From a bacterium (GTDB lineage: Bacteria > Vulcanimicrobiota > Vulcanimicrobiia > Vulcanimicrobiales > Vulcanimicrobiaceae), in the NCBI GenBank assembly GCA_021786705.1, contig JAJYMV010000149.1, positions 1 to 37,719 on the forward strand: a stretch of 37,719 nucleotides of DNA, given 5' to 3'. The notes below the pieces were generated by a model. The model did not search any database. It was not told the DNA's origin and saw only the letters and a list, made by a program, of their open reading frames with translations. The translations under genes were made by a program, and so were the position numbers. Shown here piece by piece: positions 17,606-34,694 of this stretch. Position 1 is the first letter of the stretch, and the number at the start of each line of letters is the position of its first letter.

Positions 17606-19426
17606 GTGTTCATGGAAACCCGTCGGGAAATTGCCGCCGAGACCTTCGCCGCGCTGTTCGATAAGAACCCCGAGGTCGTCGTCCTGTATAGCGCCGACGG
17701 TCTCCTCATCGACGTCAACCAGGCCTCGGTGGATCTGACGGGCTACCTCATCGAGGAAGTGCGCGGTACGACCTTCCGCGACCACATTCCCCACGGCGAT
17801 CGCGTGCGTGGCGAGATGGCGTTCGAGATGGCCCGCAGCGGCGTCGCCGACCATTTCGAGACGACGCTGCGCCACAAAGACGGCACCCTCGTCCCGGTCG
17901 AAGTCTCCGTGATCCCCGCAAAGATCGAAGGAATGGTGCGGGCGATTTTCGTTCAAGCCCGCGATATTGCCGCGCTGCGCGACGCCGAAGAGGCGATGCG
18001 CGTCAACCAACAACGGCTCCGTTCGCTCTTCGAATATCATCCGGACGGCATCGTCGAACTCAAGGCGACCGGTGTCGTTTCGCGCGTGAACGTCGCGTTC
18101 GAAAGCGAGACCGGGCTCTTGGGCGAGCGCGTCGTCGGAACCCCCTGGATCGAGCTGATCGTGCCGGGCCGGCGCGAGCGTGCCGAGTCGGCGCGCCATG
18201 CCGCTATGCGCGGTGAGGCAGCCGAACACGAGTCGGTCCTGTTGGATCGGCTGGGGTATCAAATCGAGGTGCAGCTCAAACTCGTACCGATCCACAGCGG
18301 CGAGGAGATAACCGGCACCTATGCGATCTTCAAGAACGTCTCCGCTCGGCTCGCCGCGGAACGTGCTGTGGCCGCTCAGGTCGACCGGCTGCGCCGCCTC
18401 TACCTCGTCGCGGCCTCGCGCGAACTGACGATTCCACAGCAGCTCGAGGCCGTGCTGCAACTCGGCATCGAATTTTTCGGCTTCGACGAAGGATACATCG
18501 TCCGCAACGAGGGCGACGCGATCGTCGTTCATACCGCCGTGGGACGGCAAACACCGCTTGCGCCCGGCGCGCGCGTTCCCGTTGCCTCAAGTTTTGCACG
18601 ATACCTCACCAACGAGCGGCCGTTTCTTTTTGTCCCCGATCTCGACGATCCCGAGTGGCGCGCCGATCCCGCGCGAGCGACGGTGAATTGGCGTAGCTAC
18701 GCCGGCACGCAATTACAGGTCGATGGGAAACCCTACGGGGCGCTCGCCTTTATCGGGCTGCGCGCGCGAATGGAAGGGCTCGACGAACTCGCTCGCGAGT
18801 CGATCTCGCTGATGGGGTTGCTTGTCGCCGCAGCGCTGGAACGGCAGCGCACCGCCGAACGCATCGAGCAACTCGCGTTCACCGATTCCTTGACCGAACT
18901 TCCCAATCGCGTGCTGTTCGCCGATCGAATCGAGCAGGCGTTCGGCGCGGCGAAGCGCTACGGACGCGGATTCGCCGTTATGTATCTCGATCTCGATCAC
19001 TTTAAGGCGATCAACGACACCTACGGGCATATGGTTGGCGATGAGGTGCTCGTGCACGTCGCCCGGCGTCTGCGCGCGCTCCTGCGGGAGAGCGATACGA
19101 TTGCGCGCTTCGGCGGCGACGAATTCGTAATTCTCCAACCGGTCGTCGATGCGGCGACCGATGCGGCGGATCTCGCGCGAAAAATTCTCGTTGCGTTGGA
19201 GGAGCCGATCCTTGTGGACGGCGTCTCGCATCGCGTCGCAACGAGCATAGGCATCGCGCTCTTTCCCGAGCACTCGACCGAGATCGAACGGTTGATGGAG
19301 CTTGCGGATGCCGCCCTTTATCGCGCCAAGCGCGAGGGGCGCAACCGCTGGCACTTCGCAGCGCCGCCGGTTACGACGCCGCGGGCTCCTTCGGCCGATG
19401 CTGCGCGCTCCGGTGGCGCAGCGTAA
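17606..19426 (+). CDS. PAS-PAS-GAF-GGDEF diguanylate cyclase
   Basis: Predicted cytoplasmic enzyme making cyclic di-GMP from two GTP. Domain order in 606 aa: PAS (about 15-120), second PAS (about 135-250), GAF (about 270-415) and GGDEF (about 425-585). The active-site GGDEF is intact at residues 503-507. An RESD motif at 494-497 matches the RxxD inhibitory site, so product feedback is likely. No membrane helix is seen, so the signal is sensed in the cytoplasm. The start may be GTG at 17606 or ATG at 17612. The 3' end overlaps the convergent MgtE_N/CBS gene by 56 bases. A flagellin gene and a fibre operon lie nearby, both typical c-di-GMP-controlled outputs (inference). Confidence 0.92.
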   Translation: MFMETRREIAAETFAALFDKNPEVVVLYSADGLLIDVNQASVDLTGYLIEEVRGTTFRDHIPHGDRVRGEMAFEMARSGVADHFETTLRHKDGTLVPVEVSVIPAKIEGMVRAIFVQARDIAALRDAEEAMRVNQQRLRSLFEYHPDGIVELKATGVVSRVNVAFESETGLLGERVVGTPWIELIVPGRRERAESARHAAMRGEAAEHESVLLDRLGYQIEVQLKLVPIHSGEEITGTYAIFKNVSARLAAERAVAAQVDRLRRLYLVAASRELTIPQQLEAVLQLGIEFFGFDEGYIVRNEGDAIVVHTAVGRQTPLAPGARVPVASSFARYLTNERPFLFVPDLDDPEWRADPARATVNWRSYAGTQLQVDGKPYGALAFIGLRARMEGLDELARESISLMGLLVAAALERQRTAERIEQLAFTDSLTELPNRVLFADRIEQAFGAAKRYGRGFAVMYLDLDHFKAINDTYGHMVGDEVLVHVARRLRALLRESDTIARFGGDEFVILQPVVDAATDAADLARKILVALEEPILVDGVSHRVATSIGIALFPEHSTEIERLMELADAALYRAKREGRNRWHFAAPPVTTPRAPSADAARSGGAA

Positions 19427-20681
19427 TTCGCGGCAACTTTTTCGCCATCTCTTCGGGCATGATCGCATCGATCGCGTCGTCGACCGTGACGATGCCGAGC
19501 ATGCGATCGCGTTCGTCGACGACGGGAATCGCGAGCAGATCGTAGCGTGCGATCGCGGCGGCTACCTCTTCGGCGGGCGTTTCCGGGCGCACGCTGACGA
19601 TATCGGTTCGCATAATTTTATCGATAAACGCCGTCGGTAAAGCGAGAAGAAGATCGCGCAGGGTCACGATGCCCAGCAAGCGATCCTCCTGATCGATCAC
19701 GTAGAGGTAATAGATTAATTCGCTCTCCGGAGCGAGCTCGCGAATCTTCCGAATCGTCGCGTCGGTGGTGCGATGCGGATAGATCCACACGTAATCGGTC
19801 GTCATGAGGCCGCCGGCGGTATCGTCGTCGTACTTCACGAGTTCGCGCAGCTCGCCCGCGGTATCGGCGTTCATTTCCGCGAGCAGCTCGCTCTGCCGCT
19901 CCTCGGGGAGCTCCGCGAGCAGATCGGCCGCGTCGTCGGAGTCCATCTCTTCGATGATATCCGCGGCACGTGCCGTTCCGACGCTTTCGATGATTTCGCG
20001 CTGCGTCTGGGCGTCGAGGTGTTCGAACGCGTCGGCGGCGACCTCGTCGTCGAGCTGCTTGACCACCGTCGCAGCCTCGCTGCTTGAGAGCGTCCCGATA
20101 ATCTCGGCGAGGTCGGAGGGATGTAGCCGGGCGAGCTTATTCGCCGTCACCGAGAGGTGAACTTGGCTCGGGTTGACCTCGCGAATCGGAGCGACCGAGT
20201 CCCACGCGATCATCGCGCGCGGAATTCGTTCGTGAATCGCGGGCGAGAGGCGCTCGCCGAGTCTGCGGAGACCGAGCCGACGGAGAAGCCCGGCGAAACC
20301 GATATCGGCGGCGACCACGCGCAACTGCCCCCCGGTCCGCGCGACCTCGAGGTCGTTGATGCGCACGACTTTGCGGCCGTCGATATCGACGATCTGTTTA
20401 TCGAGGAGATCCGCGACGAGATAGAGGGCCTCGCCCTCGGGTGGGGCCGGCTCTTTGGGTGCGCTCGACAGTGAAACGGCGCCCCCGCGTTCGATGCCGA
20501 GCACCGACTCCATAGGGGCGAAGCGCGCTCCTTGCGCTGTCTTGACGACGAAACCGTCGATTTGCGGGAAGGTCGCCTCGGGGTGGTTGACGAGAAAATC
20601 GCCGATCTTTCCAATCGGCAAGTCGTCGATGGTGACGCGTTTGCCGACCAGTTCCGAGATGAACCCTTGCGTGAACGCCAT
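19371..20681 (-). CDS. PRC-barrel / MgtE N-domain / CBS-pair protein without membrane domain
   Basis: The 436-aa soluble protein has PRC-barrel-like beta sheets (about 1-140), an MgtE intracellular N-domain of acidic helical repeats (about 165-270; LHPSDLAEIIGTL, DDAADLLAELPEE, YDDDTAGGLMT), and a CBS pair (about 275-400). MgtE magnesium channels carry the same N and CBS modules, but here the five-helix pore is absent. The protein ends in a basic tail after the second CBS domain. The ATG at 20681 has a strong GGGGAGG ribosome-binding site. A Mg2+- or nucleotide-sensing partner role is an inference; no enzyme activity is apparent. Confidence 0.82.
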   Translation of the reverse strand: MAFTQGFISELVGKRVTIDDLPIGKIGDFLVNHPEATFPQIDGFVVKTAQGARFAPMESVLGIERGGAVSLSSAPKEPAPPEGEALYLVADLLDKQIVDIDGRKVVRINDLEVARTGGQLRVVAADIGFAGLLRRLGLRRLGERLSPAIHERIPRAMIAWDSVAPIREVNPSQVHLSVTANKLARLHPSDLAEIIGTLSSSEAATVVKQLDDEVAADAFEHLDAQTQREIIESVGTARAADIIEEMDSDDAADLLAELPEERQSELLAEMNADTAGELRELVKYDDDTAGGLMTTDYVWIYPHRTTDATIRKIRELAPESELIYYLYVIDQEDRLLGIVTLRDLLLALPTAFIDKIMRTDIVSVRPETPAEEVAAAIARYDLLAIPVVDERDRMLGIVTVDDAIDAIMPEEMAKKLPRITLRHRSAQHRPKEPAAS

Positions 20682-20738: not shown

Positions 20739-22172
20739 TTATGCGATAGGCGCGGCCCCCGCGCCGACCCCGATGCCGATTCCGTTCAGCATCAGGGCGG
20801 TGATCTGGAGCGCGCTGACTTGCATCTGCGCGATGACGCTCGTTCCAATTTGCGTGAGAATCTGCTGCTGGGTGAGATTCGTCACGGTCGCGCCGATATT
20901 CGCGTCTTGGATCGAGCTAACACTTGCGGTGAGGTTGACGGCTGCGGTATTCGCATTGTTCGCGTCGTAGTTTAACGAGACCATCTGGGCACCGATTTGT
21001 GCCTGCGCCTGGGTGACCGCGGTAATCGCCGCATCGACGCGGACCTCCGCGTCGGTTGCAGGAATGATGTTACTGGAACTCTGCCCGGTTACTTGGTTGA
21101 AAATGTTGACGGTTTGCGGTGCAAGCACTGAAATATCGGAAATGTTGAGGTCTGACGTGCTGACGCCCGGTAATGATATGGCGGTCGTTTGCCCTTCCTG
21201 TGGGCCATCTTGGACATACAATGGCCCCGAACTCGTCGATCCGCCCGAACTTGGCGGAGCAACGACTTGAAATGCGATAGTCGCGCCCACATCTTGCTGC
21301 GTGAGGTTCGCGAGGTTGAATTGAAGAAGTTCACTCGACGATGAGCCTGAATACGATGCCGGTGTTGCCTCGGTGATGCCGCTCAAAACACCTGAATTTA
21401 TCGGTACCGCCGTCGTGTCTTGCATGAGTGGCGCCGATCCGAATGATGGATTATTGCTGTAGGCCTGTACTTGGACAAAGACACCCGGACCAACGTTAAT
21501 CCCGGTGTCAGGGTCTATGGCATTTGCCGAATAGCCCGTTACCTGGAATACGATGAAGTTAGGGGTAAAGTTACCGGGACCCGAGACACCTCCCGGCCCG
21601 GACAGAGTGACGAGAGGGCCGGGGTTTCCGAGGCCATCCGCGTTCGTGACCGTCGTTGGCGCAATCGAGCCGCTCGATGTTAATAACGGTGAAGTTATTT
21701 GGTATGCACCATAGCCAACGCCATTGCTCGACGCCGGTGAGTACAAGGGCGTCGTCTGGAATTGTCCATTCAACAGATGGAGTCCGTTGAAACTGGTGTT
21801 GCTCGATATGCGGTTCACCTCGAGCAGCAATTGTGAAATCTCTGCCTGGATGTTGGCGAGATCGGTCGACGAATTGAGATCGGAGCGCGACTCGACGACC
21901 AAGCTGCGGATGCGCTGAAGGATCAGCGTGATCGTCGTGAGGGCTCCGTTCGCGACGGCGAGCGCGTTGTTCGCGGTCTGCACGTTTTGCACGGCTTGCT
22001 GGAAACCGTTCACTTGCGTCTGCAGGCGTTGTGCGATGCCGTAACCGCTGGGGTCATTAACAGCAGAACTCACGCGGAGGCCGCTGGCCAGCGCGCGAAT
22101 GTCGGTCTGTTCCTTTTTTTGTGTGAGAGAAAGGTTCAGAAGAACCTGACTCGCACTCCCCAGCACATCCAT
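20739..22172 (-). CDS. Flagellin
   Basis: Structural subunit of the flagellar filament. The ATG at 22172 gives 477 residues beginning MDVLGSASQVLLNLSLTQKK. The N-terminal D0/D1 helices are recognisable (ALASGLRVSSAVNDPSGYGI, NNALAVANGALTTI, RISSNTSFNGLHLL), as is the C-terminal helix (AITAVTQAQAQIGAQMVSL, SSIQDANIGATVTNLTQQQI). A variable domain of about 230 residues sits between them. The last 15 residues form an unusual Gly/Ala-rich tail after the normal end point. An AAGGAGG site lies 15 bases upstream of the ATG, a rather long spacing. A longer frame to 22274 lacks flagellin character. No other flagellar gene is in the window. Confidence 0.92.
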   Translation of the reverse strand: MDVLGSASQVLLNLSLTQKKEQTDIRALASGLRVSSAVNDPSGYGIAQRLQTQVNGFQQAVQNVQTANNALAVANGALTTITLILQRIRSLVVESRSDLNSSTDLANIQAEISQLLLEVNRISSNTSFNGLHLLNGQFQTTPLYSPASSNGVGYGAYQITSPLLTSSGSIAPTTVTNADGLGNPGPLVTLSGPGGVSGPGNFTPNFIVFQVTGYSANAIDPDTGINVGPGVFVQVQAYSNNPSFGSAPLMQDTTAVPINSGVLSGITEATPASYSGSSSSELLQFNLANLTQQDVGATIAFQVVAPPSSGGSTSSGPLYVQDGPQEGQTTAISLPGVSTSDLNISDISVLAPQTVNIFNQVTGQSSSNIIPATDAEVRVDAAITAVTQAQAQIGAQMVSLNYDANNANTAAVNLTASVSSIQDANIGATVTNLTQQQILTQIGTSVIAQMQVSALQITALMLNGIGIGVGAGAAPIA

Positions 22173-22214
22173 GAAGTAAGGTGGCTTCCTCCTTGAAGAT
22201 TCCCTACAGTTCGG

Positions 22215-22241
22215 ATATCGGCCGAACCACCCCAAGACTTG
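22215..22241 (-). promoter_or_regulatory. Candidate sigma-28 (FliA-type) promoter for flagellin
   Basis: On the minus strand, GCCGATAT (22215-22222) matches seven of eight bases of the sigma-28 -10 consensus GCCGATAA. CAAGTCTT (22234-22241), 11 bases upstream, is a weak match to the TAAAGTTT -35 element. The implied 5' UTR of about 35 bases would include the AAGGAGG site of the flagellin gene. The -10 lies within the dyad TTCGGATATCGGCCGAA, so a regulator could also bind there. Confidence 0.5.
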
Positions 22242-22254
22242 CTCGTTGCTAGGT

Positions 22255-22318
22255 GAATCCCTGGTAAAGATCATGCCTCTCCAGGTAAGCCGCGGGGCTT
22301 GAGAAGCCGATAGGATTC
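22255..22318 (+). promoter_or_regulatory. Predicted three-way-junction leader that can hide the ribosome-binding site
   Basis: GAATCC (22255-22260) pairs perfectly with GGATTC (22313-22318). Inside, CTGG (22261-22264) pairs with CCAG (22281-22284), and GGCTT (22296-22300) pairs with AAGCC (22304-22308). The only Shine-Dalgarno-like stretch, TAGGA (22311-22315), lies within the closing stem about ten bases before the ATG at 22326. Folding would mask it, so this may be a translational switch. It does not match any riboswitch class I recognise, and the fold is drawn by eye. Confidence 0.4.
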
Positions 22319-22325
22319 TTGCTCG

Positions 22326-25300
22326 ATGAAGCCGATCGCCGTACGAAAAAGGTTAATCCTTTCGTTCTCAGTCCTCGGACTGACGGCGGCGCTTTTCGCT
22401 TGCCTGGCACCGCGAGCCGGCGCGAGCCCCTACGCCCCCGTCGGAGCGCTTCCTCGGCCGACGGCGGGGAGTTCGCCGCTGCCTTCCGTCGAGCCAACAG
22501 GAAGCCCCTCCCTCAGCCCCGCCCCGAGCCCATCGGCGACCCCTCGCCCGAAGCCGACCCGGGCGCCGCGGTTTACGCGCGGCGGGCCGCTGGAGTTCTC
22601 GTTAAACGGCTCGCTCTCGTTCGGTAGGACGCAGTCGAGCTACGCCACGACGGCGAGCCCCGCGCCCGGCGCTGCGGCCCTGACGAGCAATCAAACGCAG
22701 AGCGAGACGGGCGTCGGCATGCTCGCCCATCTGTTCAGGCGCGCTGGAAACAGCACGCTCGACCTTCAGGTTCCGTTCACGCTCTCTACCTCGACGAGCC
22801 TCTTTGGGAGCGGCATCCTCAGCTACTCGACTCCACGCTACGCAATAGGCTATGGGCCGGAGAGCCTCTCCGTGCTCGGGCAACTCGGCGTCGGTTCCAC
22901 GCTCCGCGGCCTGTTCTTCACGCTTCCTGCAAACGGCGGCGACGTTACGGCCTTTGCGGGGCCCGCTCTCTTGAACCAAGGGGCGAGTATTCGGCTCTAC
23001 GGTCTGCGGGAGCGGCGGCTCGTTGCCGGGCGACTCTTTGAATATGGCCTCGCAATGACGCCGCCGGGGAGCGGGATCGGCTCCTCGCTAACGGTGTTGA
23101 CCGGGACCGCGCAACGGCGTGGCGATGCATCGGTGGTGCTCGAGGCCGCGCTGCAGAGGCTCGCTGCTACCTCCGAGACTCCGGGTGGTGCCGGAATCGC
23201 TGCTCAAGCGCGAATCGATTGGGGGAAGCAGAGCGGATTGTGGTCGCTGACGACGAGGACGATTCCCAACGATTTCATTGCCTTTGGAACGGGGCAGTTG
23301 CAGGGCGATCGCCTGATCGATATCAGCCATATTTCGCAGTCGCGACACGGGACGAGCACCTTCGATCTTGCCTTCGAGCGTTCGTTGCTCAACGGTGAGA
23401 GCACGACGCAGCGTCGCAGTTCGTACATCCTGAGCGGGCAGCTCACGCAGCACCTCGGTTACTCGTTCAATCTCTTCGATCAGGCGTTGGGGGGAAGCTC
23501 GGGGAGCCAGTGGCAGGGCACAGCGGGTGGGCAACTCTCCTTTTCGGGGCGGATGGGTTTCCTGAGCCTCTCGGAGCAACTCGGTCGTTTCACGAGCATT
23601 TCGGCGTCCCCGACCGGCACCGCACAGAGTGCCGTTCAATCGCAGATACGCTTGGGAGCATTCGCGCTCTCGCTCACCGACCAGGAGTTGCGGACCGCAG
23701 GTGGGCTCGCCGGCGTCGGGCATCAAGGGAGTTTCGGTGCGCAACTTGGACGAACGAGCGGGAAGACGACTATCTCCTTAAACTTTATGCGGACCCTCAC
23801 GCAGAACGCGATCTCCGACGCAATCTCCCGCATTCCGACGGTCAGCGTGACGCGACAGATCTCGCCGGCGTTTTCGATTACCGCTTCCTACGGCACAGAG
23901 TCGCTCGTCGATCGTTTAAATCCGGCGGTCGACGGTCGCTCGCGCATTTTTAATCTTCAGGTCAATGCTCCGTTCATGTTCGGGAGCGGGGCGCTCGTCC
24001 AGGGCAGAGTCGATCCGCGCTTGCCGGCGACGATTGGAGGGCGCGTGACGCTCGATTCGGGATCGGCGGCGACCTATCTCGTGGGCTCTGGAACCTATGG
24101 CGTCGCCAATGCGATGGTGGTGCTCGATGGACGGTACGTGCAGCGAACCGATCTTAACGGCAATTATCAATTCAGTTTCGTGCCGCCTGGAGAGCACCAA
24201 GTGCGGCTCGAAACATCCTCGCTTCCGCGCGGGCTAACCGCAGATTCTCCGGTCGTCACGCTCACCGTGCAGGGCGGGCAGAGCGCGCAAATTGGGTTCT
24301 TGGTTGGCGATTTCGGCGGCATCGCGGGACACGTTTACGGCATCAGCCGCGACGGCGAACGCGTGCCGCTTGCGAACGTCCTCGTGCGCGTCGATAGCGG
24401 AGCCTATTCGCAGACCGATTCGAGCGGAGCCTACGGTTTCGGGCGGCTGAGCCCCGGCGAACATACCGTCTCGGTGCTGGAGAACTCGGTTCCGGCCTTC
24501 GCGACCTTCTCGAAGAAAGAGCTCACGCAGAAGGTAAACGTGAACCGCGGTCAGCTCAGCCATGCCACCTTCACCGCCGAGCCGCTCGGTTCGATCTCCG
24601 GCTACGTCCTCTATGGGAAGGACGTGCCGAAGCCATACGTTCCGGGTGACGGCGCGCTCAACGCCTACGTTGTCGCGGAACCCGGGGACGAAGCGGCGAT
24701 CGCGAACGACGACGGCTCCTTCGTGCTCGACGATCTCACCCCCGGGACCTACACGCTCTCGATCGATCCCGAGACCGTCGCCGAGGGCCTGGGACAGGTG
24801 AGCCCCGACCTGACGATTACGCTCGCCGCGCGCGAGCGCTACAAGGGCGCGATTTTCAAGGTCGGTCGGAAGAAAAAGAAAGTAGTCTTTACGTTCTTCG
24901 GGAACGCCGGCGCCGCCGCGCCGACGCTCGCGCCGAGCGTCCAACTCTCCGAGCCGCGCCTTCCCCCCGGCGGCGCGGCGGAGGTAAGCGTTGCGGCGCC
25001 CGCCGATGCGGCGGTTTCAGCGACGGCGTTCGGGCGGAGCGAGCGGCTGCGCTATGACGCGGCGCGCAAACGTTGGATCGGCGAGATCATCGTGCCGAAG
25101 GGGACGCGCGCCGGGCGCTTCGAGGTGCGCGCGCATACGGCGGCTGGCCGCACCCCGCTCCCCGGCGAGCTCACGGTCGATCCGCGCCTGCCGATCGCGA
25201 TACTTACCGCGAGCCCGGGCTCGGCGAAGATCGGCGAGTACGTCACCGTGCGGGCGCGCTTCCTCGCCGACGTGCGGCCGGGGGACCGAATTCTCTGGGC

Positions 25301-25433
25301 GGACGGGCAGAAGAGCGTACTTGGGAAGCCGCTCGTCGGCCGACTCTACGCCTTCACCCTCAAGCTGAGCGCGCGTCCGATGGTCGGTATTTTAGTCACG
25401 GCTCACGGCCGGTTTACAGTGCGACTTCAGTGA
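22326..25433 (+). CDS. Putative outer-membrane usher-like beta-barrel protein with CNA-B-like domains
   Basis: The 1035-aa protein begins with a Sec signal peptide (basic start, hydrophobic core, cleavage near RAGAS at 31-36). A Pro/Ser/Thr-rich spacer follows (about 38-80; PSPSATPRPKPTRAP). Residues 85-580 alternate short amphipathic strands and glycine-rich turns, as in an outer-membrane barrel. Three CarboxypepD_reg/CNA-B-like modules come next: about 588-660 (TDLNGNYQFSFVPPGEH), 663-745 (TDSSGAYGFGRLSPGEH) and 754-840 (NDDGSFVLDDLTPGTY). Two Ig-like domains end it. Pilin-like and chaperone genes follow on the same strand, so the best guess is a divergent usher or fibre-assembly platform. 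A plain surface protein is the alternative. I see no canonical FimD/PapC signature. Confidence 0.6.
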   Translation: MKPIAVRKRLILSFSVLGLTAALFACLAPRAGASPYAPVGALPRPTAGSSPLPSVEPTGSPSLSPAPSPSATPRPKPTRAPRFTRGGPLEFSLNGSLSFGRTQSSYATTASPAPGAAALTSNQTQSETGVGMLAHLFRRAGNSTLDLQVPFTLSTSTSLFGSGILSYSTPRYAIGYGPESLSVLGQLGVGSTLRGLFFTLPANGGDVTAFAGPALLNQGASIRLYGLRERRLVAGRLFEYGLAMTPPGSGIGSSLTVLTGTAQRRGDASVVLEAALQRLAATSETPGGAGIAAQARIDWGKQSGLWSLTTRTIPNDFIAFGTGQLQGDRLIDISHISQSRHGTSTFDLAFERSLLNGESTTQRRSSYILSGQLTQHLGYSFNLFDQALGGSSGSQWQGTAGGQLSFSGRMGFLSLSEQLGRFTSISASPTGTAQSAVQSQIRLGAFALSLTDQELRTAGGLAGVGHQGSFGAQLGRTSGKTTISLNFMRTLTQNAISDAISRIPTVSVTRQISPAFSITASYGTESLVDRLNPAVDGRSRIFNLQVNAPFMFGSGALVQGRVDPRLPATIGGRVTLDSGSAATYLVGSGTYGVANAMVVLDGRYVQRTDLNGNYQFSFVPPGEHQVRLETSSLPRGLTADSPVVTLTVQGGQSAQIGFLVGDFGGIAGHVYGISRDGERVPLANVLVRVDSGAYSQTDSSGAYGFGRLSPGEHTVSVLENSVPAFATFSKKELTQKVNVNRGQLSHATFTAEPLGSISGYVLYGKDVPKPYVPGDGALNAYVVAEPGDEAAIANDDGSFVLDDLTPGTYTLSIDPETVAEGLGQVSPDLTITLAARERYKGAIFKVGRKKKKVVFTFFGNAGAAAPTLAPSVQLSEPRLPPGGAAEVSVAAPADAAVSATAFGRSERLRYDAARKRWIGEIIVPKGTRAGRFEVRAHTAAGRTPLPGELTVDPRLPIAILTASPGSAKIGEYVTVRARFLADVRPGDRILWADGQKSVLGKPLVGRLYAFTLKLSARPMVGILVTAHGRFTVRLQ

Positions 25434-25500
25434 CGATAAGAATCTTTACCGAAAGCAGGGCCATAACTTTACTACCCCTTGACCCATTCGTAGAAAGTTC

Positions 25501-25546
25501 CGGGAGCAGGCAACCGATACGATAATCGTAAAAGCTCTCGCTCCCG
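25501..25546 (+). promoter_or_regulatory. Nested dyads upstream of the first pilin-like gene
   Basis: CGGGAGC (25501-25507) pairs perfectly with GCTCCCG (25540-25546). Within it lies the perfect inverted repeat TACGAT-A-ATCGTA (25518-25530). It could be an operator for a dimeric regulator or a leader-RNA hairpin. A TTGACC at 25479-25484 resembles a -35 element but has no good -10 at the right distance. The 150-base spacer otherwise shows nothing recognisable. Confidence 0.35.
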
Positions 25547-25583
25547 CCAAGGACGGCGACTTCTCGCGCATGGTGAAAGGATC

Positions 25584-26279
25584 ATGAATACAAAACGAAT
25601 TATCGCGCTTGCCTCATTCGCAGCGTTAGTTATCTCCACAACTCCGGCTTTCGCAGCCTCTCCGACGGTCACGATCGATTGGAACACCCAAAAAATCGCG
25701 TCGATCGTTCTCACGTCGCAGTATAACGGCACGCCGCTCGGCAGCCACAATACCGGCGCCGAAACCATCTACCCAAATCTCAACCTCGGAGCCGGCGTTT
25801 GTGCTGCCTCCGATACCGAGGCCGGTGCCGGCACCAGCAATGGTACGACCAATGCGGCGACCATCAACTTCGGCAACGTCACCCCGGACTCTCTGCAATA
25901 TACGGACTGCATGGAGGTGAACGCCCTGAATGCCGTCGTGCAGACCAACGATTCGCTCGGATATTCGGTAACGGAAGCGGCGACCGCGGGCTATCCGGCG
26001 AGCGGCTATCTGCTCTGCCTGCTGCCCAACGGCGGCGCGTCGTACACGAACGGCGAAGCAGCAACCGCTTCGACGCGCGTGGCAGCTCCCTCGATCGTCA
26101 GCACCGCGTCCTGCCCCGCCGGCGACTTCCCGATGAACGGCACCGGCGCCACGTTGCTCTCGGCGACCGCTGCGACGACCGGCACCAACCTTGGTGGCGA
26201 CGTCGAGTTGGTAATCGGGCCGAACGCACCCTCGGGCGCGCAGTCGGTGACCGTTACCTACACTCTGACCACGAATTAG
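25584..26279 (+). CDS. Pilin-like secreted subunit (major candidate)
   Basis: The 231-aa protein has a signal peptide with cleavage near TPAFAAS (about residues 20-26). The mature start is an alternating beta-strand (VTIDWNTQKIASIVLTSQYN) strongly resembling that of the second pilin-like protein at 27208. Other pilin-like features are INFGNVT, EVNALNAVVQTN followed by a GYSV strand, four cysteines and the C-terminal strand TVTYTLTTN. These fit the spore-coat-U/archaic pilin style, although I cannot prove membership. The start ATG follows AAAGGATC. A strong hairpin separates it from the chaperone gene, consistent with higher expression of this first subunit. No sorting or type IV pilin motif is present. 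Confidence 0.65.
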   Translation: MNTKRIIALASFAALVISTTPAFAASPTVTIDWNTQKIASIVLTSQYNGTPLGSHNTGAETIYPNLNLGAGVCAASDTEAGAGTSNGTTNAATINFGNVTPDSLQYTDCMEVNALNAVVQTNDSLGYSVTEAATAGYPASGYLLCLLPNGGASYTNGEAATASTRVAAPSIVSTASCPAGDFPMNGTGATLLSATAATTGTNLGGDVELVIGPNAPSGAQSVTVTYTLTTN

Positions 26280-26304
26280 GGTAGGTACGATCCTTGGCGC
26301 GTCA

Positions 26305-26342
26305 CGTTTCGTTGCGGGGACTCACCTCCTCGCAACGAAACG
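26305..26342 (+). promoter_or_regulatory. Intercistronic 12-bp hairpin between pilin and chaperone genes
   Basis: CGTTTCGTTGCG (26305-26316) pairs perfectly with CGCAACGAAACG (26331-26342) around a 14-base loop containing CACCTCCT. No T-tract follows, so it is not a standard terminator. It more likely stabilises the upstream pilin mRNA or attenuates into the chaperone gene. The loop could also pair with purine-rich ribosome-binding sequence. The chaperone site GAGAGGG starts right at the stem base. Confidence 0.6.
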
Positions 26343-26352
26343 AGAGGGCACG

Positions 26353-27147
26353 ATGCTGAAAATCCGATCGCTCCGCGCGCTCGCGGCACTCACGCTCCTC
26401 ATCTGGCCGATCCGTGCAAGTTCGATCCAACTCGGGCTTGAGGTGACGCCGGGGAAACTCGAGGTTTCGATTCCCAGAGGCATGACGTACAACATACCGA
26501 TCACGATTCACAACTCGGGGCTCAACTCGACGCACGTGCAGGCGACGATGGTCGACTTCACGGTGAATCAAGGAGGAAGCTACGTTTTTACCAAAGTGGG
26601 TTCGCGCCCGAACTCACTGATGAAATGGGCCTCGATTCGTCCGCGTGAGTTTAACGTTTTACCGAACACCTCGCAGCAAGTGCAATTGACGATCCAAGTC
26701 CCTTCGAATAAAGCGCTCTCGGGCGAGTACGCCGGCATCGTTTTTTTCCAGACGCGGCCGGAGCGTAAACCCGGGCAGACGGTCGCCTTCTCGGAACGCA
26801 TCGCCTCGAAGATCTACGAAACGATTCCCGATACGGTGCACATCGACGGCGCGATCGTTCGAATGGCGAGCTACGCGAATCCGCTCGGACGAATCTATCA
26901 CGTGCTCTTTAAAAATACCGGCAACGCACACGTCTACCTTCGAGGGCAGCTCGTCGTGCAGACGACCTCGGGAGCGATCGTCGATCACGTGGCGATCCCT
27001 AGCAACCAACTCGTCGAACGCGGCGGTATGCGCCTGTTGGAGATTCAGGGAAAGCGTCTCCCTCCAGGAGAGTACGAAGCGATCGCGACGATCGATTATA
27101 ACGGCAAGACGGATACCGCGGGCGGCATCAAGTTTACGGTTCGCTAG
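26353..27147 (+). CDS. PapD-like periplasmic pilus-assembly chaperone
   Basis: The 264-aa protein has a signal peptide (cleavage near IRASS, about residues 20-24) followed by two Ig-like domains. The first reads like the fimbrial chaperone N-domain: LEVTPGKLEVSIPRG, then VTVHN-like IPITIHNSG, SLMKWASIRPREFNVLPN, and VQLTIQVP with SGEYAGIVFF. The second (about 150-264) contains FKNTGNAHVYLRGQL and ends LPPGEYEAIATIDY plus a final KFTVR strand. Such chaperones cap subunits by donor-strand complementation in the periplasm. It lies between two pilin-like genes and downstream of a predicted barrel protein, which is what a chaperone-usher locus would show. The fold call is good; classical active-site basic residues cannot be assigned by eye. 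Confidence 0.7.
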   Translation: MLKIRSLRALAALTLLIWPIRASSIQLGLEVTPGKLEVSIPRGMTYNIPITIHNSGLNSTHVQATMVDFTVNQGGSYVFTKVGSRPNSLMKWASIRPREFNVLPNTSQQVQLTIQVPSNKALSGEYAGIVFFQTRPERKPGQTVAFSERIASKIYETIPDTVHIDGAIVRMASYANPLGRIYHVLFKNTGNAHVYLRGQLVVQTTSGAIVDHVAIPSNQLVERGGMRLLEIQGKRLPPGEYEAIATIDYNGKTDTAGGIKFTVR

Positions 27148-27207
27148 CCCGCCTTTTCGGCGCGGCGGCGTGATTCGGGTTCATGGAGGATGGTAGGAGC
27201 CACGAGG

Positions 27208-27873
27208 ATGGAACACAGAGGAACGGCACGGATACGGGGGATCGGCATAGCCATCGCGATGATGGCACTGCTACCGGTCGCCGTTTTCGCGTCGACTGCC
27301 TCCACCGTCGTGACATGGCGTGCAAACGCGATCGTCAAGCTCTCGTTGACCCCGAATTATAATAGTGGCTTCGGCGCAGTTCCGGCGGTGATTGGAGCGC
27401 AACCCGCTCCAACGCACGGGCCGAACGCCGTCTTCGACGGAGGTTCGGTCGATTTCGGCACGATCGACGCCGGCAAGACCTATCTCTACAAATACGCCGT
27501 AGAACTCAACGTTACGACGAACTCCTCGACCGGATTCAATATCTACGGTGAGGGTGCGGCGGATTTCTACAATCTCACCGATGGGACGAGCGTTCCGATC
27601 TCGCAGACGGTCTATTACGTCCCTTCCACGGCCGCCTCCGATTCAAACACCGGGTTTACTGCGGGTGCGCCTTTCATGAAGACGAGTGCGGCGGTAAGCG
27701 GTAGTGGTTATGCGACCGCGCCGACTATCGCGTATACCACCTACCCGACGCCGATCGCGCAGAGCCTCGCGGCAACCGGTACCTATTATTATGACTACGA
27801 AGTGAAGGTTCCCAATACTGCTACGAACGGGCAGTATTATGTTTGGATCGTCTATACAGTGGTGGCAAAATGA
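27208..27873 (+). CDS. Second pilin-like secreted subunit
   Basis: About 221 aa from the ATG at 27208, which has an AGGAG site eight bases upstream. An in-frame ATG at 27190 would add six residues and has a poorly placed site. The signal peptide ends near AVFAS. The mature start TVVTWRANAIVKLSLTPNYN parallels the first pilin-like protein (W, I, LT, YN positions). A VDFGTIDAG strand, VELNVTTNSSTGFNIYGEG and the C-terminal YVWIVYTVVAK match the shared pattern. It contains no cysteine. Its TGA overlaps the ATG of the next gene. Likely a minor or alternative fibre subunit (inference). Confidence 0.62.
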   Translation: MEHRGTARIRGIGIAIAMMALLPVAVFASTASTVVTWRANAIVKLSLTPNYNSGFGAVPAVIGAQPAPTHGPNAVFDGGSVDFGTIDAGKTYLYKYAVELNVTTNSSTGFNIYGEGAADFYNLTDGTSVPISQTVYYVPSTAASDSNTGFTAGAPFMKTSAAVSGSGYATAPTIAYTTYPTPIAQSLAATGTYYYDYEVKVPNTATNGQYYVWIVYTVVAK

Positions 27874-28541
27874 AACGGCTGGCCCGCGTTACCCTTCTTG
27901 CCGGATTCCTTGCGTTGGCCACCGTGGCTGCCGCACTCGCACTTTTTGTCCAGCAGCGAGATCAAATCGCGGTGACGATTATCGTCAACGTTACGCCGGC
28001 ACCACGAATGGCTGCCTTTGCACCGTCGGCAACGACGGGCTCGCACATTCGGGCCGCCTTCACGCTAGATGCCAACCGGACTCTTCGTGCCGACGCAATT
28101 TCACTCGATCGCCTTGTCGCCCAGAATCAACAAGCCGTTCGTGTCGAAGCCTCCGTTCAGCCCAATCCGTTGGGCACGTTATTGGTTAGTAACCAGAATT
28201 CAGTAACTATTAATGCTACCGCTGGAACTACCACGGTGATTCCGTGTGCCTATACCATTACGGTAGATACGACGGTTACGTATTGGCAGCTCAAGGACGG
28301 CGTGTACAGTGATTTTTCGGGAACATTCCCCGGGAACGATTTGGCAAACAACACCTATATAACCGCGCCTCTTGCAACGGCGACCCCGTTCTTCGTCTAT
28401 CTCGATGATGGAGGGCAATTCGCCCTCCGCGAAACAAGCGGTGGAACGAAGACCTATTGCGTCGATCTTACGTTGACCATCCCGGTCAGCGTCTCCGGGG
28501 GGACGTATAGCACCAACGCGGTCTATACGCTGTATTACTGA
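27870..28541 (+). CDS. Small secreted or membrane-anchored pilin-like subunit
   Basis: The ATG at 27870 overlaps the preceding stop (ATGA) and gives 223 residues. A hydrophobic N-terminal segment (about 8-30, LLAGFLALATVAAALALF) could be a signal peptide or an uncleaved anchor, since no clear cleavage motif follows. The first mature strand (DQIAVTIIVNVTP) and the C-terminus (GGTYSTNAVYTLYY) repeat the subunit pattern of the locus. Two cysteines (in VIPCAYTI and TYCVDLTL) could form a disulfide. An adaptor or anchoring subunit is a reasonable guess. Homology to a named family is not recognisable. Its stop shares one base with the next ATG. Confidence 0.55.
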   Translation: MKRLARVTLLAGFLALATVAAALALFVQQRDQIAVTIIVNVTPAPRMAAFAPSATTGSHIRAAFTLDANRTLRADAISLDRLVAQNQQAVRVEASVQPNPLGTLLVSNQNSVTINATAGTTTVIPCAYTITVDTTVTYWQLKDGVYSDFSGTFPGNDLANNTYITAPLATATPFFVYLDDGGQFALRETSGGTKTYCVDLTLTIPVSVSGGTYSTNAVYTLYY

Positions 28542-31500
28542 TGAACGTACGTCGCCTGCAGTCACTCTCCGTCGCAGCGATCGTCGCCGTCGCAGCGGTC
28601 GCCACGGCGTTCGGCCGCGGGGTCCCGGCGCGCATCGTCCCTCACCCGATCGTAACACCGATCGGCGTGCCGATTTTCCACACGCCGCCGCCGCTGCCGA
28701 TCCCCACGCTCCATCCGACGCCGACCCCGTCGGCGCTGCCCGGCTTTCCGCAGGCAAATTCGAACGTGCGCGCGCCGGGAAGTATCGTGCCGCTCTCGGA
28801 GTTGCCGCGCCTCCCGATGAAGAGCGCGATGAATACGCTCCATCCGGGGCAGCGGAGGATTCAAGCCGCGACCGGAGCAACGGTCTTATTGACGGCGAGC
28901 GGAAGCGCGAACTGCGCGATTACGGCGGGCGATAACTTTACGGTCGGTTGCACCGCCGATTGGCAATCCTCCGGCCTGACCGGCGGCGACACATTCCAAG
29001 ATTATTACATCGCGCCCAACGTCGCCGACGGCACTGCCGGCACGGCGGTCGGCGGGGGCTACGGCGCCCCAAACGGCAACGTCCATGCGACGACGCTGAG
29101 CGTCGCCGGGGTCTATACCTTCGGCGTGCTCGACACGACCACCAATAAGTGGGTCGCGGTAATCTATATTAACGTCGGCGTTACCTACAATTTCGGTGTC
29201 TACCAGGATGCCTTCCACACGCAGTTGATTTCGCAATTCGCCGCCGGATCGAGTTCGGCCGCCTATATTTACGCGACGAACCTCACCCCGTCGGATTTTT
29301 ACGTCGTCTATATCGAATCGACATCGATTAATCCGGTCTGTATTTTCTCTGCGCCGGTGCAATCGTCGTACGCGACGAACGGCCTCTGTCAGCCCAACCT
29401 CTCCTCGGGAGAACAGGCCCCCGGCGGCAACCTTGCCGTTACGTGGACGATCAGCGCGACGCAAGCGGCGGGCACCTATTCGGTGGTGCTCTTCGACAAG
29501 ACGACGAATCAGCGCATCTCGCAACAACAGATCTCCGTGACCGGGCCGAGCGGCGAAACGATGCTGCTCTATCCCGACGGAACGAACGCGAACCCTTCGC
29601 CGCGCCCCATTCCCGCGGCGACGCCGGGCACGGTGTTCGCCTGGGATAGCGCGAACGATCAATCGACCTCGGGAATCCGTCAGCAGATACTCATCGCGCC
29701 GAGCTCGACCTACGAATGGACGATCTCCGACCCGACCGGCGAAACGCTCTGGACCGCGAACGCCGCCGGGAGCGGTACGGCGACCAATACCTTCCAGTTT
29801 GGAACGAACGCACTCGGCAGCGCCTACTCGCCGGGGAGTTACGTCCCCCGCACCTTCACCGCGCAGGCTTACGATACGGTCGCCAAGAGCGTCTACGCGT
29901 CGCAAGCGTTTACGATGGTCGGCTATTACGTGTCGACGACCTTTACCGGTGGATCGATCACCTTGCGCGTACCGGGCGGCAGCTCGCAAACGACGAACCT
30001 GATTTTCACGAATAACTCGCCGCTGCGCTTCGGCCTCGCGAATAGCGATTCGTTCGCAAAGATCGCCTTTTCTACCGGCTCGGATTTCACCGCAAACGGG
30101 AACAACGGCTACGGCGTCGATGTCGTGCTCGCAGGCTACACGCTCGCGCAGTGCCAAGCAACGTGCACGACGACGGCGACCGACTCGGCGGGAAATTCGT
30201 GGAGCGTGAAGGATACCTGCGGCGTAAACGGCTCGGGGAACGACGAGTGTTACGTTGAGGTCGATCCGACGAAGAGCAACGAATATCTCGCCCCCAATGC
30301 CAGCTTGACGATTCCGAACGTCAGTTTCTCCGACGTGAACGGCGGTATCTGTCAGGCGAACGCGAGCTGCCAAATGCTGACTTCGGTTCTCCCGGAGCAC
30401 GGGCTCACCTGGTCGGTCACCACCGCGACCGACGCCTACGCGCCGGCCTTTATCGCGGTCGGAAACACGGGCGGCTCGGCCACGGCGACGCTCGCCGGCG
30501 TCTACGTCAACGGCGGCTATCAATCAGGCGCGCCGCAAGATGTTGAGGCACACTTCTTTAAGCCGAATACCGTCGACGCACAGTACGAACGCAATTCGCC
30601 CTATGCGATCAATCTGAACGATTTCAATATCGTTGCCTTCCAGATCAAGAATAATTCGAATAACACGGTCTCGGAGATTGGGATCGGCCTCGTCGGAACC
30701 TATTCGTCCTTCGGCGTCCTCGATTACTTCCAAGCCGATCCGAACCTCAACACCGACTTTTGGGTGATCGATAACGGATGTACCGGCGCAGCGCAACCGC
30801 TTCCACGCAAATACGTGTGCTTCTATGATTACAGCGGCGGTATCGGGCCCGGCAAAACGCAGACCTTTTATATGGATGTGAACGCGGCTCCGAACGGATT
30901 TCCATACTCCGACTGGGCGGTGCTCTCGGCGTACCCGACAGTCTATGCGTTGAGCCCCGGTGGAACGGAGGTCGTCCCGGTAACGAGCGCAGGCGTCAAC
31001 CAAAGCGTCGATAGCCTCGCCTGGGCGCAGTATTCGCTGAACTCCAGTCTGATGACGTCGTATTTCTCGCCATCTTCGGTCGGGACGAATACTACCTCGC
31101 CGGTGGACGTCATCTTTCAAAACACTTCGTTAGGTGAAGATCCGAACCCGGACTTCGTCGATACCGTTGAGGTTGCGGCATCGAATAGTCTCTCGACCTC
31201 GGGCGCCCCATCGGTGGTCTCGCCCGCAGGCTGGTCCTATATTGGGAGCGGCTCGAGTGGCGCGCAGACCTATTGGATCTTCAGCGCCTGCAACAACGTG
31301 AACCAGGCCTACGCCGTTCCGCCGACCGGTACGCTTTCGAGCCCCGACACGCGCCCGCAACCGGAATGTAATACCGCCGGCCTCGCCAACGCGCTCGCCC
31401 CGGGTGCGAGCCTGACGTTGAAGTTTGCTTTGCAGAATCTCAATACCACCGGGAACGTGCCGTTTACGATCTACGCGCACGGCGCGAACGGCAATGGTTG

Positions 31501-32566
31501 GTCCGCCGGCAAGACCTTCCAGTTGTTGGTGAACAGCGTTTCGGCGGGCGTGGGCTTCACGGGGGCGGGCGGCTACCCGACCGCAACCGCCGTTGCGACC
31601 AATACCGAGCCGACGATCGGCGGCAACGCGAACGGCACGTACGGAAACGCCTACACCTACACCGTGACGAACAACTCCGGCGTTAGCAGCAATATCACCT
31701 CGTTCCGCGTTCGCATACCCGGTACCGATGTCAACGGCGTCAATGCAACCGACAGCAGCGGCAACTTCTGGCACGTGACCGGTTCTATTCCCACTCTTTC
31801 GGGGAACGTGGACGGCTGTACGGTGACGAACGCGCTCTCAGCGATGAGCGCGACCTCGGCGGGCGCCGACGGCGAGATCGATATCGGCGGTGCTTCCTGC
31901 GCGTTGAAACCCGGCGATACGATGACGATCTCGTTCACGGCAATCGGACCGCAATCGAATAGCGATTCCTATCAGTTCCAGACCTACTGCATCAATAACA
32001 CCGCCGGAACGTGCACCCTCGCAAATGGCATCGTCGGCGGCCCGAACTGGCTCGGCGATGACGAAGTGCAGGTGCAGCTCTCGGTCGGACTTACCGTGGT
32101 CGTCGATCCATCGAACCCCGGTCCGGGCGGTTCGACGCCGAACGTGAGTTGTGCGCTCTGTTCCTTCTCCGGCTCGACCATTACGCTCGGCAACTATGCG
32201 AATAACACGACGACGACATTCGGCGATATCGTCCGCGCGAGCGTCATCATCCAGTCGACGACGGCGATCACCTGGAATCTCTCGGTACAGGCGAATAGTA
32301 ATCCCGTCAATAGTACGGGCTCGCCGACGAACGAATTGTTGACCCAGACCGACTCGACGAACTCTTCGCAGGGAGCGGGGATTAGCTTCGACGTGCCGAC
32401 CTTCACGGTCGTGCCGACGGCGACGAGCCTGCAGATCGCCAATGGTACGAGCGTCACCACGCGAACCCAGCCCTACGATATCCTGCAGAACTTCGAGCTC
32501 GCGCTCGGTGGCGAGACGCTCAGCGCCCAGAGTTCGGTCATCACCTACACGCTGGTCGCGAATTAA
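28541..32566 (+). CDS. Giant secreted adhesin-like protein with C-terminal pilin-like domain
   Basis: The 1341-aa protein has a signal peptide (about 1-26), a Pro-rich spacer (about 30-70; PPPLPIPTLHPTPTPSALPG) and many beta-rich, Thr/Ser/Asn/Gly-rich modules. These resemble Ig-like or DUF11-type surface repeats, for example TVTNNSGVSSNITSFRVRIP, and contain scattered cysteine pairs. The last 130 residues or so differ: STITLGNYANNTTTTFGDIV, ITWNLSVQA and the final VITYTLVAN look like a pilin domain with the same C-terminal strand as the small subunits. That layout (large N-terminal region, pilin domain last) recalls two-domain tip adhesins such as FimH. The ligand is unknown. Long minus-strand frames across it are shadows. 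The ATG overlaps the previous stop by one base. Confidence 0.62.
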   Translation: MNVRRLQSLSVAAIVAVAAVATAFGRGVPARIVPHPIVTPIGVPIFHTPPPLPIPTLHPTPTPSALPGFPQANSNVRAPGSIVPLSELPRLPMKSAMNTLHPGQRRIQAATGATVLLTASGSANCAITAGDNFTVGCTADWQSSGLTGGDTFQDYYIAPNVADGTAGTAVGGGYGAPNGNVHATTLSVAGVYTFGVLDTTTNKWVAVIYINVGVTYNFGVYQDAFHTQLISQFAAGSSSAAYIYATNLTPSDFYVVYIESTSINPVCIFSAPVQSSYATNGLCQPNLSSGEQAPGGNLAVTWTISATQAAGTYSVVLFDKTTNQRISQQQISVTGPSGETMLLYPDGTNANPSPRPIPAATPGTVFAWDSANDQSTSGIRQQILIAPSSTYEWTISDPTGETLWTANAAGSGTATNTFQFGTNALGSAYSPGSYVPRTFTAQAYDTVAKSVYASQAFTMVGYYVSTTFTGGSITLRVPGGSSQTTNLIFTNNSPLRFGLANSDSFAKIAFSTGSDFTANGNNGYGVDVVLAGYTLAQCQATCTTTATDSAGNSWSVKDTCGVNGSGNDECYVEVDPTKSNEYLAPNASLTIPNVSFSDVNGGICQANASCQMLTSVLPEHGLTWSVTTATDAYAPAFIAVGNTGGSATATLAGVYVNGGYQSGAPQDVEAHFFKPNTVDAQYERNSPYAINLNDFNIVAFQIKNNSNNTVSEIGIGLVGTYSSFGVLDYFQADPNLNTDFWVIDNGCTGAAQPLPRKYVCFYDYSGGIGPGKTQTFYMDVNAAPNGFPYSDWAVLSAYPTVYALSPGGTEVVPVTSAGVNQSVDSLAWAQYSLNSSLMTSYFSPSSVGTNTTSPVDVIFQNTSLGEDPNPDFVDTVEVAASNSLSTSGAPSVVSPAGWSYIGSGSSGAQTYWIFSACNNVNQAYAVPPTGTLSSPDTRPQPECNTAGLANALAPGASLTLKFALQNLNTTGNVPFTIYAHGANGNGWSAGKTFQLLVNSVSAGVGFTGAGGYPTATAVATNTEPTIGGNANGTYGNAYTYTVTNNSGVSSNITSFRVRIPGTDVNGVNATDSSGNFWHVTGSIPTLSGNVDGCTVTNALSAMSATSAGADGEIDIGGASCALKPGDTMTISFTAIGPQSNSDSYQFQTYCINNTAGTCTLANGIVGGPNWLGDDEVQVQLSVGLTVVVDPSNPGPGGSTPNVSCALCSFSGSTITLGNYANNTTTTFGDIVRASVIIQSTTAITWNLSVQANSNPVNSTGSPTNELLTQTDSTNSSQGAGISFDVPTFTVVPTATSLQIANGTSVTTRTQPYDILQNFELALGGETLSAQSSVITYTLVAN

Positions 32567-33353: not shown

Positions 33354-33778
33354 TCGCACGGCGCCTCTCGCTGCTCTTTGGAATCGTCTTTCTCGCCATT
33401 GGCGGGCTCGCGTTCTTGCCGGCGGTCGCGCCGCTCGCGCCCTTCGACGCTCCCGTCGTCGTCACGCTCGACCCGCATTTTCGGCTTCTCTTCGGCCTCT
33501 TTCCGGTGAATCTCGCGCACGATGCGATTCATCTGCTCTTTGGGGTCTTCGGCGTGATCGCGGCGAGAAGCCTCGCAAGCGCGACCGGTTATTTTCGCAA
33601 ACTCTTCTGGTTCTATCTGCTCGTCGCGATTCTCGGCATGATTCCGATTACCAACACGATCTTCGGCATCGCGCCGGTTTATGGATGGGACGTGCCGCTC
33701 CATCTTGGAACGGCGATCGTTGCGTGGTTCGCGGGGTACGGCCGGCTCTCGGTCGATCCGCTCCAATCGAAGCCTTAA
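33350..33778 (+). CDS. DUF4383-like integral membrane protein
   Basis: The 142-aa protein has four predicted membrane helices: about 8-26, 50-70 with the loop [19 protein letters not shown], 82-102 and 115-132. The FPVN..HD..H..FG pattern and size resemble DUF4383 small membrane proteins of unknown function. The ATG overlaps the phosphatase stop (ATGA), so the two are cotranscribed. An IS3-family element is inserted 78 bases after the stop. The 77-base spacer (33779-33855) has only a weak G-U-containing hairpin at 33806-33831. Confidence 0.75.
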
Positions 33779-34694
33779 TTTTGCCCAGACGAATGTGTAG
33801 CTTGTGGTCACCTCGTTCGCAAGTGGTGGCCTTCGTGCATTCGTTGTTGAAACAGTGACGGGTACCCCAAAGTAATGCCACCTTTCGAGGGAAAAGGGTA
33901 ATTTGTTCGTTTGACCGGGCGAACCCCTCGGGCGTTTGCTGTCCAAGGGCCCGATGCGGTCGGTTGGTGTTGTAGTCGATCCGCCGGCGCTCGATTTCCT
34001 CGCGGGCTTCGTTGAGCGAATCGAAGGTATGTTCGTTGAGGCATTCGTCGCGGAACTTCCCGTTGAAGCTCTCGACGAAAGCGTTCTGCGTTGGCTTCCC
34101 TGGGGCGATATAGTGCAGCCGGACGCTCCGATCGCGTGCCCACGCGAGCATGGCTACACTCGTCAGCTCCGTGCCGTTGTCCATGACGATGGTTTCCGGG
34201 TATCCGCGCGCTTCGGCGATCGCGTCGAGCACGCGGGCCACGCGGTTGCCGGAGAGCGAGGTGTCAACTTCGATATCCAGACATTCGCGCGTGAAGTCGT
34301 CGACGACATTGAGCGTTCTGATCTTTCGACCGGCTCGCAGCGTGTCGTGCACGAAATCAAGCGACCAGCGCTCGTTCATCTTCGAGACGACTGGCGCCGG
34401 ATTTCCACGGCCCAGGGCAACGCGGCGCTTCACCCGACGGCGCACCTGAAGGTTTGCCTCGCGGTACACACGCAGGATCCGCTTGACGTTGTCCTTGATA
34501 CCCTCGCGGCGCAAGAGCACCGTTAGCTGACGGAATCCAAACCGACGACGCTCCGCCGCCAGTGCCTCTAGACGTATCCTCAACGTGCTGTCCTCCGGCC
34601 GCCGACGAACGTATCGAACCATACGCCGGTTGGCCTTGAGATAGCGGCACGCTTGCCGTTCGCTGATGTCGAGCATCTTCTGGATCGCCTGCAC
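33648..34694 (-). CDS. IS3-family transposase OrfB (DDE integrase domain), runs past the element end
   Basis: Catalytic half of an IS3-family transposase. An HTH_21-like stretch ([17 protein letters not shown]) precedes the rve integrase core: [10 protein letters not shown] (first Asp), [11 protein letters not shown] (second Asp) and [16 protein letters not shown] (Glu). The frame is open upstream of the GTG at 34694 back to the OrfA slippery site, so the active protein is probably an OrfAB frameshift fusion. No stop occurs before the left terminal repeat (33856). The frame continues about 70 codons into flanking DNA, antisense to the DUF4383-like gene, giving a tail unrelated to the family. 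Catalytic residues are intact, so activity is possible. Confidence 0.88.

Follow-up and report, generated by a model that had tools for sequence, protein, structure and literature searches.

The stretch analysed here, positions 1 to 37,719 of contig JAJYMV010000149.1 (37,719 nucleotides; the window), belongs to G000, a metagenome-assembled genome of 2.19 Mb in 185 contigs from the phylum Candidatus Eremiobacterota; the bacteria that carry the locus are uncultured and live in soil. Six open reading frames (ORFs), A-B-C-D-E-F, span positions 22326-32566, all on the + strand, as a sequence-only reading of the same DNA had described, and encode a putative surface-fibre system that resembles the chaperone-usher (CU) pathway. 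That reading missed a flagellin gene lying head-to-head with A, which is part of the conserved unit; the locus is thus larger than A-F. The features are listed below (aa, amino acids; AF2, AlphaFold2; Ig, immunoglobulin).

20739..22274, - strand: locus flagellin, divergent from A (Pfam: PF00669, 3e-27; PF00700, 3e-10).
22216..22222, - strand: GCCGATA, sigma-28-like -10 element before the flagellin (direct sequence).
22286..22312, + strand: TAAG-N16-GCCGATA, sigma-28-like putative promoter before A, with the -10 at 22306-22312 (direct sequence, conservation).
22326..25433, + strand: A, usher-like predicted outer-membrane barrel protein, 1035 aa (AF2, Foldseek, HHalign, Pfam).
25584..26279, + strand: B, small secreted pilin-like subunit of family B/D, 231 aa (signal peptide, iterated profile).
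26353..27147, + strand: C, predicted periplasmic chaperone-like protein with two Ig domains, 264 aa (AF2, Foldseek, HHalign).
27190..27873, + strand: D, second small subunit and paralogue of B, 227 aa (profile family).
27870..28541, + strand: E, third small subunit, a separate family, 223 aa from ATG (orthologues in operon).
28541..32566, + strand: F, large secreted subunit and adhesin candidate, 1341 aa (orthologues in operon, C-terminal profile).

From A through F, the successive gaps are 150, 73, 42, -4 and -1 bases. The last three genes overlap, as had been claimed, by 4 bases (D/E) and 1 base (E/F). The frame of E also opens at TTG 27843, upstream of ATG 27870. All six proteins begin with N-termini that read as signal-peptide-like or hydrophobic.

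A sequence search with C gave strong matches in many of 60 relatives, and a C profile found matches in ~36 of the 149 Eremiobacterota genomes covered by our conservation counts (genomes and loci are labelled Gxxx and Lxxx). Per-gene profiles applied to the surrounding DNA showed the same six families recurring as one unit in ~36/149 genomes, far above chance. The genes follow the order A-B-C-D-E-F or, in other genera, A-B-C-F-D-E; A-F-B-C-D-E (L085) and a rearranged locus with two copies of C and A last (L097) are rarer. That the set is kept together despite its changing order points to function, and not to recent common descent alone. Of 61 flagellin-bearing genomes, 36 had the operon, against none of the 88 without flagellin, a comparison that ignores kinship and is partly circular, as the locus flagellin itself counts and two genomes have one flagellin match only. 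Flagellin and the operon are both absent from the single-contig genome G017, and the cultivated relative Vulcanimicrobium has neither flagellin nor flagella (PMC9758169).

The flagellin was head-to-head with A in all 36 loci where the sequence extends upstream of a normally oriented A. We observed this arrangement in the window (20739-22274, - strand) and at L027-L042, L079-L096, L098, L202-L204 and L206. Both the N- and C-terminal helical regions of flagellins are present in the window's protein, whose true start is probably the ATG near 22172. In a tree of 61 flagellin-family proteins of the phylum, the locus flagellins formed their own clade with support of 100/100; two clade members from outside the recognised operon loci also adjoin A, on contigs with A near the end. 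The heptamer GCCGATA precedes the locus flagellin in the same orientation in most of the 36 loci, with a density of 1.93/kb in regulatory regions compared to 0.27/kb across whole loci. It was not enriched over the whole window (11 vs 7.7 expected), and the argument is one of position and conservation, not of count. Before A, TAAG-N16-GCCGATA stands at constant spacing in 8/8 examined loci of the window's genus, and several other flagellins of the phylum have promoters of the same pattern (TAAAGT...GCCGATA). A search for exact TAAA-N14-16-CGATAA, with one -10 mismatch allowed, returned nothing, whereas the looser TAAR-N15-17-GCCGAT did match. Moreover, the source genome has a FliA/WhiG sigma-factor gene that passes the curated cut-offs. 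The locus is probably under flagellar control. The source genome has two FHIPEP (FlhA-type) export genes (G000:C77 and G000:C54), as do many relatives; one is retained in most of the genomes that lack flagellin, which suggests a second export apparatus.

The AF2 model of C consisted of two Ig domains (pLDDT 91, pTM 0.80), with a lower-confidence stretch within the folded part (residues ~131-150) at the loop before strand G1. In Foldseek, the Enterococcus WxLIP structures ranked first (9i1y, 9i25; 4e-13), followed by CfaA (5e-10) and CsuC (3e-9), with YadV, Caf1M and FimC among the others. EfmWxLIP1 also ranked first in a profile search of PDB sequences (E 0.009). The Pfam match of C to WxLIP (DUF916, PF06030) was sub-threshold (2e-4; 21.6 bits vs the cut-off of 27.3), and DUF3324 did not match C; PapD_N (PF00345) gave no match to C at E <= 1 and none in the source genome at E <= 10. 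Our HHalign conclusions come from local runs with reversed controls, with signal peptides removed in key comparisons; WxLIP and its WxL partners were taken from plasmids of lactic acid bacteria and enterococci, and canonical chaperones from other Eremiobacterota loci. With signal peptides removed, C matched PapD at 93% and WxLIP at 95%, and distant C relatives matched each at 97%, whereas the PapD and WxLIP profiles did not match each other (1.5%; reversed controls <1%). The match of C to PapD extended into domain 2. C is as close to the WxLIP (DUF916) proteins of Gram-positives as to PapD. Residues 35 and 153, both lysines in C, are K or R in 32/32 orthologues and fall near the basic cleft residues R8/K112 of PapD, a correspondence taken from alignment only. 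The model of C has no C-terminal transmembrane helix and ends with a β strand (255-263).

In A, a signal peptide and a Pro-rich linker (~35-85; residues 25-85 are of low confidence in AF2) precede a predicted barrel (89-576). Two modules that align with the usher C-terminal domains CTD1 and CTD2 (~580-745), a third, CarboxypepD_reg-like module (~750-848) and Ig-like domains (~870-1035) follow. Pfam recognised CarboxypepD_reg in three stretches (4e-15); Usher (PF00577) matched neither A nor any other protein of the source genome. The barrel comprised ~24-26 strands in a model of moderate confidence (pLDDT 74, pTM 0.44). FimD chains (3e-15 to 4e-14) took the first six places among the Foldseek matches of A, and FimD and PapC made up most of those that followed; we take this model-based resemblance as a lead backed by other evidence rather than as proof. 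That evidence includes the HHalign match of A to canonical ushers of the same phylum (413 columns, 96.9%, 1.5e-10), which resides in the CTD1-CTD2 part, where it is collinear over 163 columns (96.9%, 1.4e-10). A merely generic prealbumin-like similarity was considered and rejected: as a control, generic CarboxypepD_reg domains of relatives matched the usher CTD at 67% (5e-5, 56 columns), so some of the resemblance is shared by the whole family, though its extent and collinearity are not. In FimD, the recruitment of chaperone-subunit complexes and the sealing of the pore fall to the N-terminal domain (NTD) and the plug (PMC12122975). We take A to be more probably a divergent relative of ushers that has no NTD or plug than a simple usher replacement.

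The two pilin-like subunits of the sequence-only reading, B and D, are indeed small subunits, with the correction that iterated profiles place them in one family as paralogues. The C-terminal strand of B is VTVTYTLTTN, and D ends in YYVWIVYTVVAK. E has a hydrophobic N-terminus, a conserved Cys pair and the C-terminus YSTNAVYTLYY, whereas the last ~140 residues of F resemble B/D (HHalign 88%, E 3e-6; reversed control 0.13). The C-terminus of B, D, E and F is mostly an alternating strand (vxVxYTlxxN or YTLYY type), and such a C-terminal strand is typical of pilin-like subunits. WxL gave no Pfam match, and in HHalign B/D, E and the C-terminal part of F reached ~13% or less against WxL. A search of PDB sequences returned no match for B/D and a chance-level match only for E. 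An initial SCPU-like assignment of E (83-93%) was discarded, as the alignment began in the signal peptides and vanished on their removal.

Outside the phylum, the search with C led to hypothetical proteins on Deinococcus plasmids (L176-L179), where C is the second of four genes; the first encodes a secreted protein of ~290 aa, the third a secreted protein of 175-190 aa and the last a barrel-like protein of 1013-1058 aa. Related clusters occur in two more species. The Deinococcus C matched C at 99.5%, and the large protein matched A at 99.1% over 613 columns, mostly via the modules and the Ig domain. These clusters share with the A-F locus the C and A homologues together with two small secreted proteins, and differ in their other subunits, in additional Ig domains at the N-terminus of the barrel protein and in having no adjoining flagellin. 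The proteins of L176-L180 are mostly annotated as hypothetical; the FimB/Mfa2 family label on one D. deserti C homologue is probably a misannotation. Within Eremiobacterota, distant C relatives lie beside a ~700-aa protein that shares the second and third modules of A (96.9%), and others adjoin other A relatives. Since the pair of C and a barrel recurs with different subunits, it looks like the constant core. We also observed a second, simpler locus type (L044, L045, L047, L048, L142, L144 and L145), with a distant C relative, the ~700-aa protein or a fragment of it, and other secreted proteins; the ~700-aa protein has an A-like C-terminal module and, in one case, a Cu_amine_oxidN1-like N-terminal domain.

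We consider it likely that the locus encodes a divergent CU-like fibre export system that forms its own deep branch and works like the CU pathway. Much of the sequence-only reading survives in this interpretation. The two-Ig fold of the 26353 protein, the large barrel of the 22326 protein (both as predicted by AF2) and the conserved gene neighbourhood, on which that reading depended, were all found. Its CU-like system holds as regards an Ig chaperone, a barrel, and small and large subunits, but PF00345, PF00577 and SCPU were not matched; its barrel with CNA-B-like modules in place of an usher agrees with the predicted barrel and the modules, but the first two modules align with usher CTDs and ushers top the Foldseek matches.

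From these relationships we infer chaperoning, secretion and polymerisation of the subunits by donor-strand exchange. B, D, E and F would enter the periplasm via their signal peptides, where C may bind them and lend its G1 strand to complete their folds, with the flexible F1-G1 loop at residues ~136-148. A would serve as the outer-membrane pore. Lacking the usher NTD, it may recruit C-subunit complexes through its periplasmic CarboxypepD_reg and Ig modules, which begin with the two that match usher CTDs. B and D (and possibly E) would form the fibre, with F as a large tip or shaft subunit carrying a pilin-like C-terminal domain, and the assembled product would presumably function at the cell surface. 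The dedicated flagellin is transcribed from the control region of the operon, which contains sigma-28-like boxes, and this would bring the locus into the flagellar regulon; a fibre under such sigma-28 control would probably be made when flagella are made. The pairing of C and A with different subunits in Deinococcus is as expected if the two form the machine and the subunits change.

Several results weigh against this interpretation. The best Foldseek matches of A had low query TM-scores (0.22-0.27), an effect of the moderate confidence of its model. Taken by itself, the barrel reached 18-22% against usher barrels, which is not significant, and neither the usher NTD nor the plug was found in A by HHalign. 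In the same type of comparison, neither SCPU pilins nor WxL domains gave a significant match to B, D or E. We must also note that the sigma-28-like box on the A side occurs only in the window's genus, and that its -10 ends ~13 bases before the ATG, so the transcript would be nearly leaderless if the box is used.

A different view of C would make it a permanent structural partner, like WxLIP, in a surface complex of a diderm WxL cluster, with A as only an outer-membrane anchor. The closest solved relative of C by both sequence and fold is indeed WxLIP, and the combination of a small subunit, a large subunit with a C-terminal domain and a WxLIP-like protein mirrors WxL clusters (PMC10599100). 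Nevertheless, C has neither the C-terminal transmembrane helix nor a DUF3324 match, its PapD match reaches into domain 2, the subunits do not match WxL domains, and A resembles ushers, which translocate. With WxL domains and the helix missing and DUF916 below its cut-off, this is not a WxL cluster as known, and we regard the diderm version as unlikely. Far less probable is a standard archaic (sigma) CU locus missed by Pfam through divergence only. The logic of the parts is the same, and C and the CTD region of A match the canonical proteins of the phylum by profile, but canonical loci with SCPU pilins, PapD and PF00577 ushers are clearly recognised in that same phylum. PapD_N, Usher, NTD, plug and SCPU similarity were not found here, A carries added modules, and C lies equally near WxLIP and PapD; the locus is therefore not a standard CU locus. 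A could also be a porin or receptor unrelated to ushers, with prealbumin-like adhesion modules, and its neighbours displayed adhesins. CarboxypepD_reg modules are common, and in Foldseek the barrel of A alone matched porins and isolated usher pores about equally well. We find this very unlikely, as the predicted strand number is near 24 and not 16-18, the order and position of the CTDs after the barrel match ushers, and A is partnered with a chaperone-like protein in two phyla.

The flagellin permits yet another explanation, in which the secreted subunits bind a filament made of, or capped by, the locus flagellin and give an adhesive or sheathed flagellum. The separate flagellin clade, its linkage to A in 36/36 loci, the restriction of the operon to flagellin-bearing genomes (36/61 vs 0/88) and the shared control region with sigma-28-like boxes speak for it. 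However, shared regulation suffices to explain the linkage, the contact itself would be an inference, the genome counts ignore phylogeny and include the locus flagellin (two genomes having a single flagellin match), and the Deinococcus relatives of C and A have no adjoining flagellin gene. We doubt that such decoration occurs. Slightly less doubtful, though still improbable, is a combined form of the favoured CU-like reading: a flagellum-coupled fibre machine co-expressed with its own flagellin, on a branch connecting PapD and WxLIP chaperones, whose exported subunits coat, cap or tether the filament.

On the outer flank of the flagellin, an MgtE-N/CBS-domain-like protein (19371-20681, - strand) was recognised by eye, and ORFs of similar size stand there in several related loci. 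Downstream of the locus, also by eye, an IS3-type transposase-like frame (33648-34694, - strand) overlaps the end of a DUF4383 gene.

The CU-like reading has consequences beyond this locus. With a protein such as C, matching both PapD and WxLIP, one can test whether the pilus chaperones of Gram-negatives and the WxL partners of Gram-positives share an origin. If an usher-like barrel has no N-terminal domain for chaperone binding, the question arises how it would recruit subunits, and the strict link to a dedicated flagellin suggests one regulon building two surface appendages, in a phylum of which very few members have been cultivated. Among the papers searched, we found none joining Eremiobacterota with chaperone-usher systems, and the terms "WxL domain" and "chaperone-usher" together only in a 2012 secretomics study.

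The sequence-only reading took the lineage to be one where CU systems are not commonly described, but standard systems do occur in it: canonical usher (PF00577) and PapD (PF00345) genes were found in 23/149 genomes each, at separate loci, although profile searches found neither in the source genome. The canonical loci carry SCPU pilins where checked, and their ushers match PF00577 at up to 1e-33. Since these archaic loci occur separately, and in some genomes (e.g. G018, G097, G098 and G099) coexist with an A-F locus, the latter represents another branch. Archaic pili (Csu; in Eremiobacterota, e.g. G041 and L131) and the A-F locus have in common an Ig-domain chaperone, small secreted subunits, one operon and, as predicted for A, a large outer-membrane barrel with periplasmic C-terminal modules. 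The A-F locus differs in lacking PapD_N and Usher Pfam matches, SCPU pilins and a detected usher NTD or plug, and adds the modules and Ig domains of A, the 1341-aa large subunit and the head-to-head flagellin. Compared to the FimD and PapC ushers of type 1 and P pili, which are the top Foldseek matches of A and have, as predicted for A, a barrel followed by CTD-like domains, A has no detected N-terminal chaperone-binding domain or plug and carries additional modules. The WxL/WxLIP (DUF916-DUF3324) clusters of Firmicutes provide the nearest match of C (9i1y, 9i25) and likewise combine a small subunit, a large subunit and a two-Ig partner. On an Arthrobacter plasmid (L181), a DUF916 protein occurs without a barrel, flanked on each side by a small hypothetical protein, the arrangement one would expect of a monoderm version. 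In contrast to these clusters, the A-F locus has a diderm host and a predicted outer-membrane barrel, its C is without a transmembrane helix, and WxL domains are not recognisable. In the published WxLIP-WxL model, a WxLIP strand completes the WxL sandwich (PMC10599100), which parallels the donor-strand complementation of CU pili (PMC12122975).

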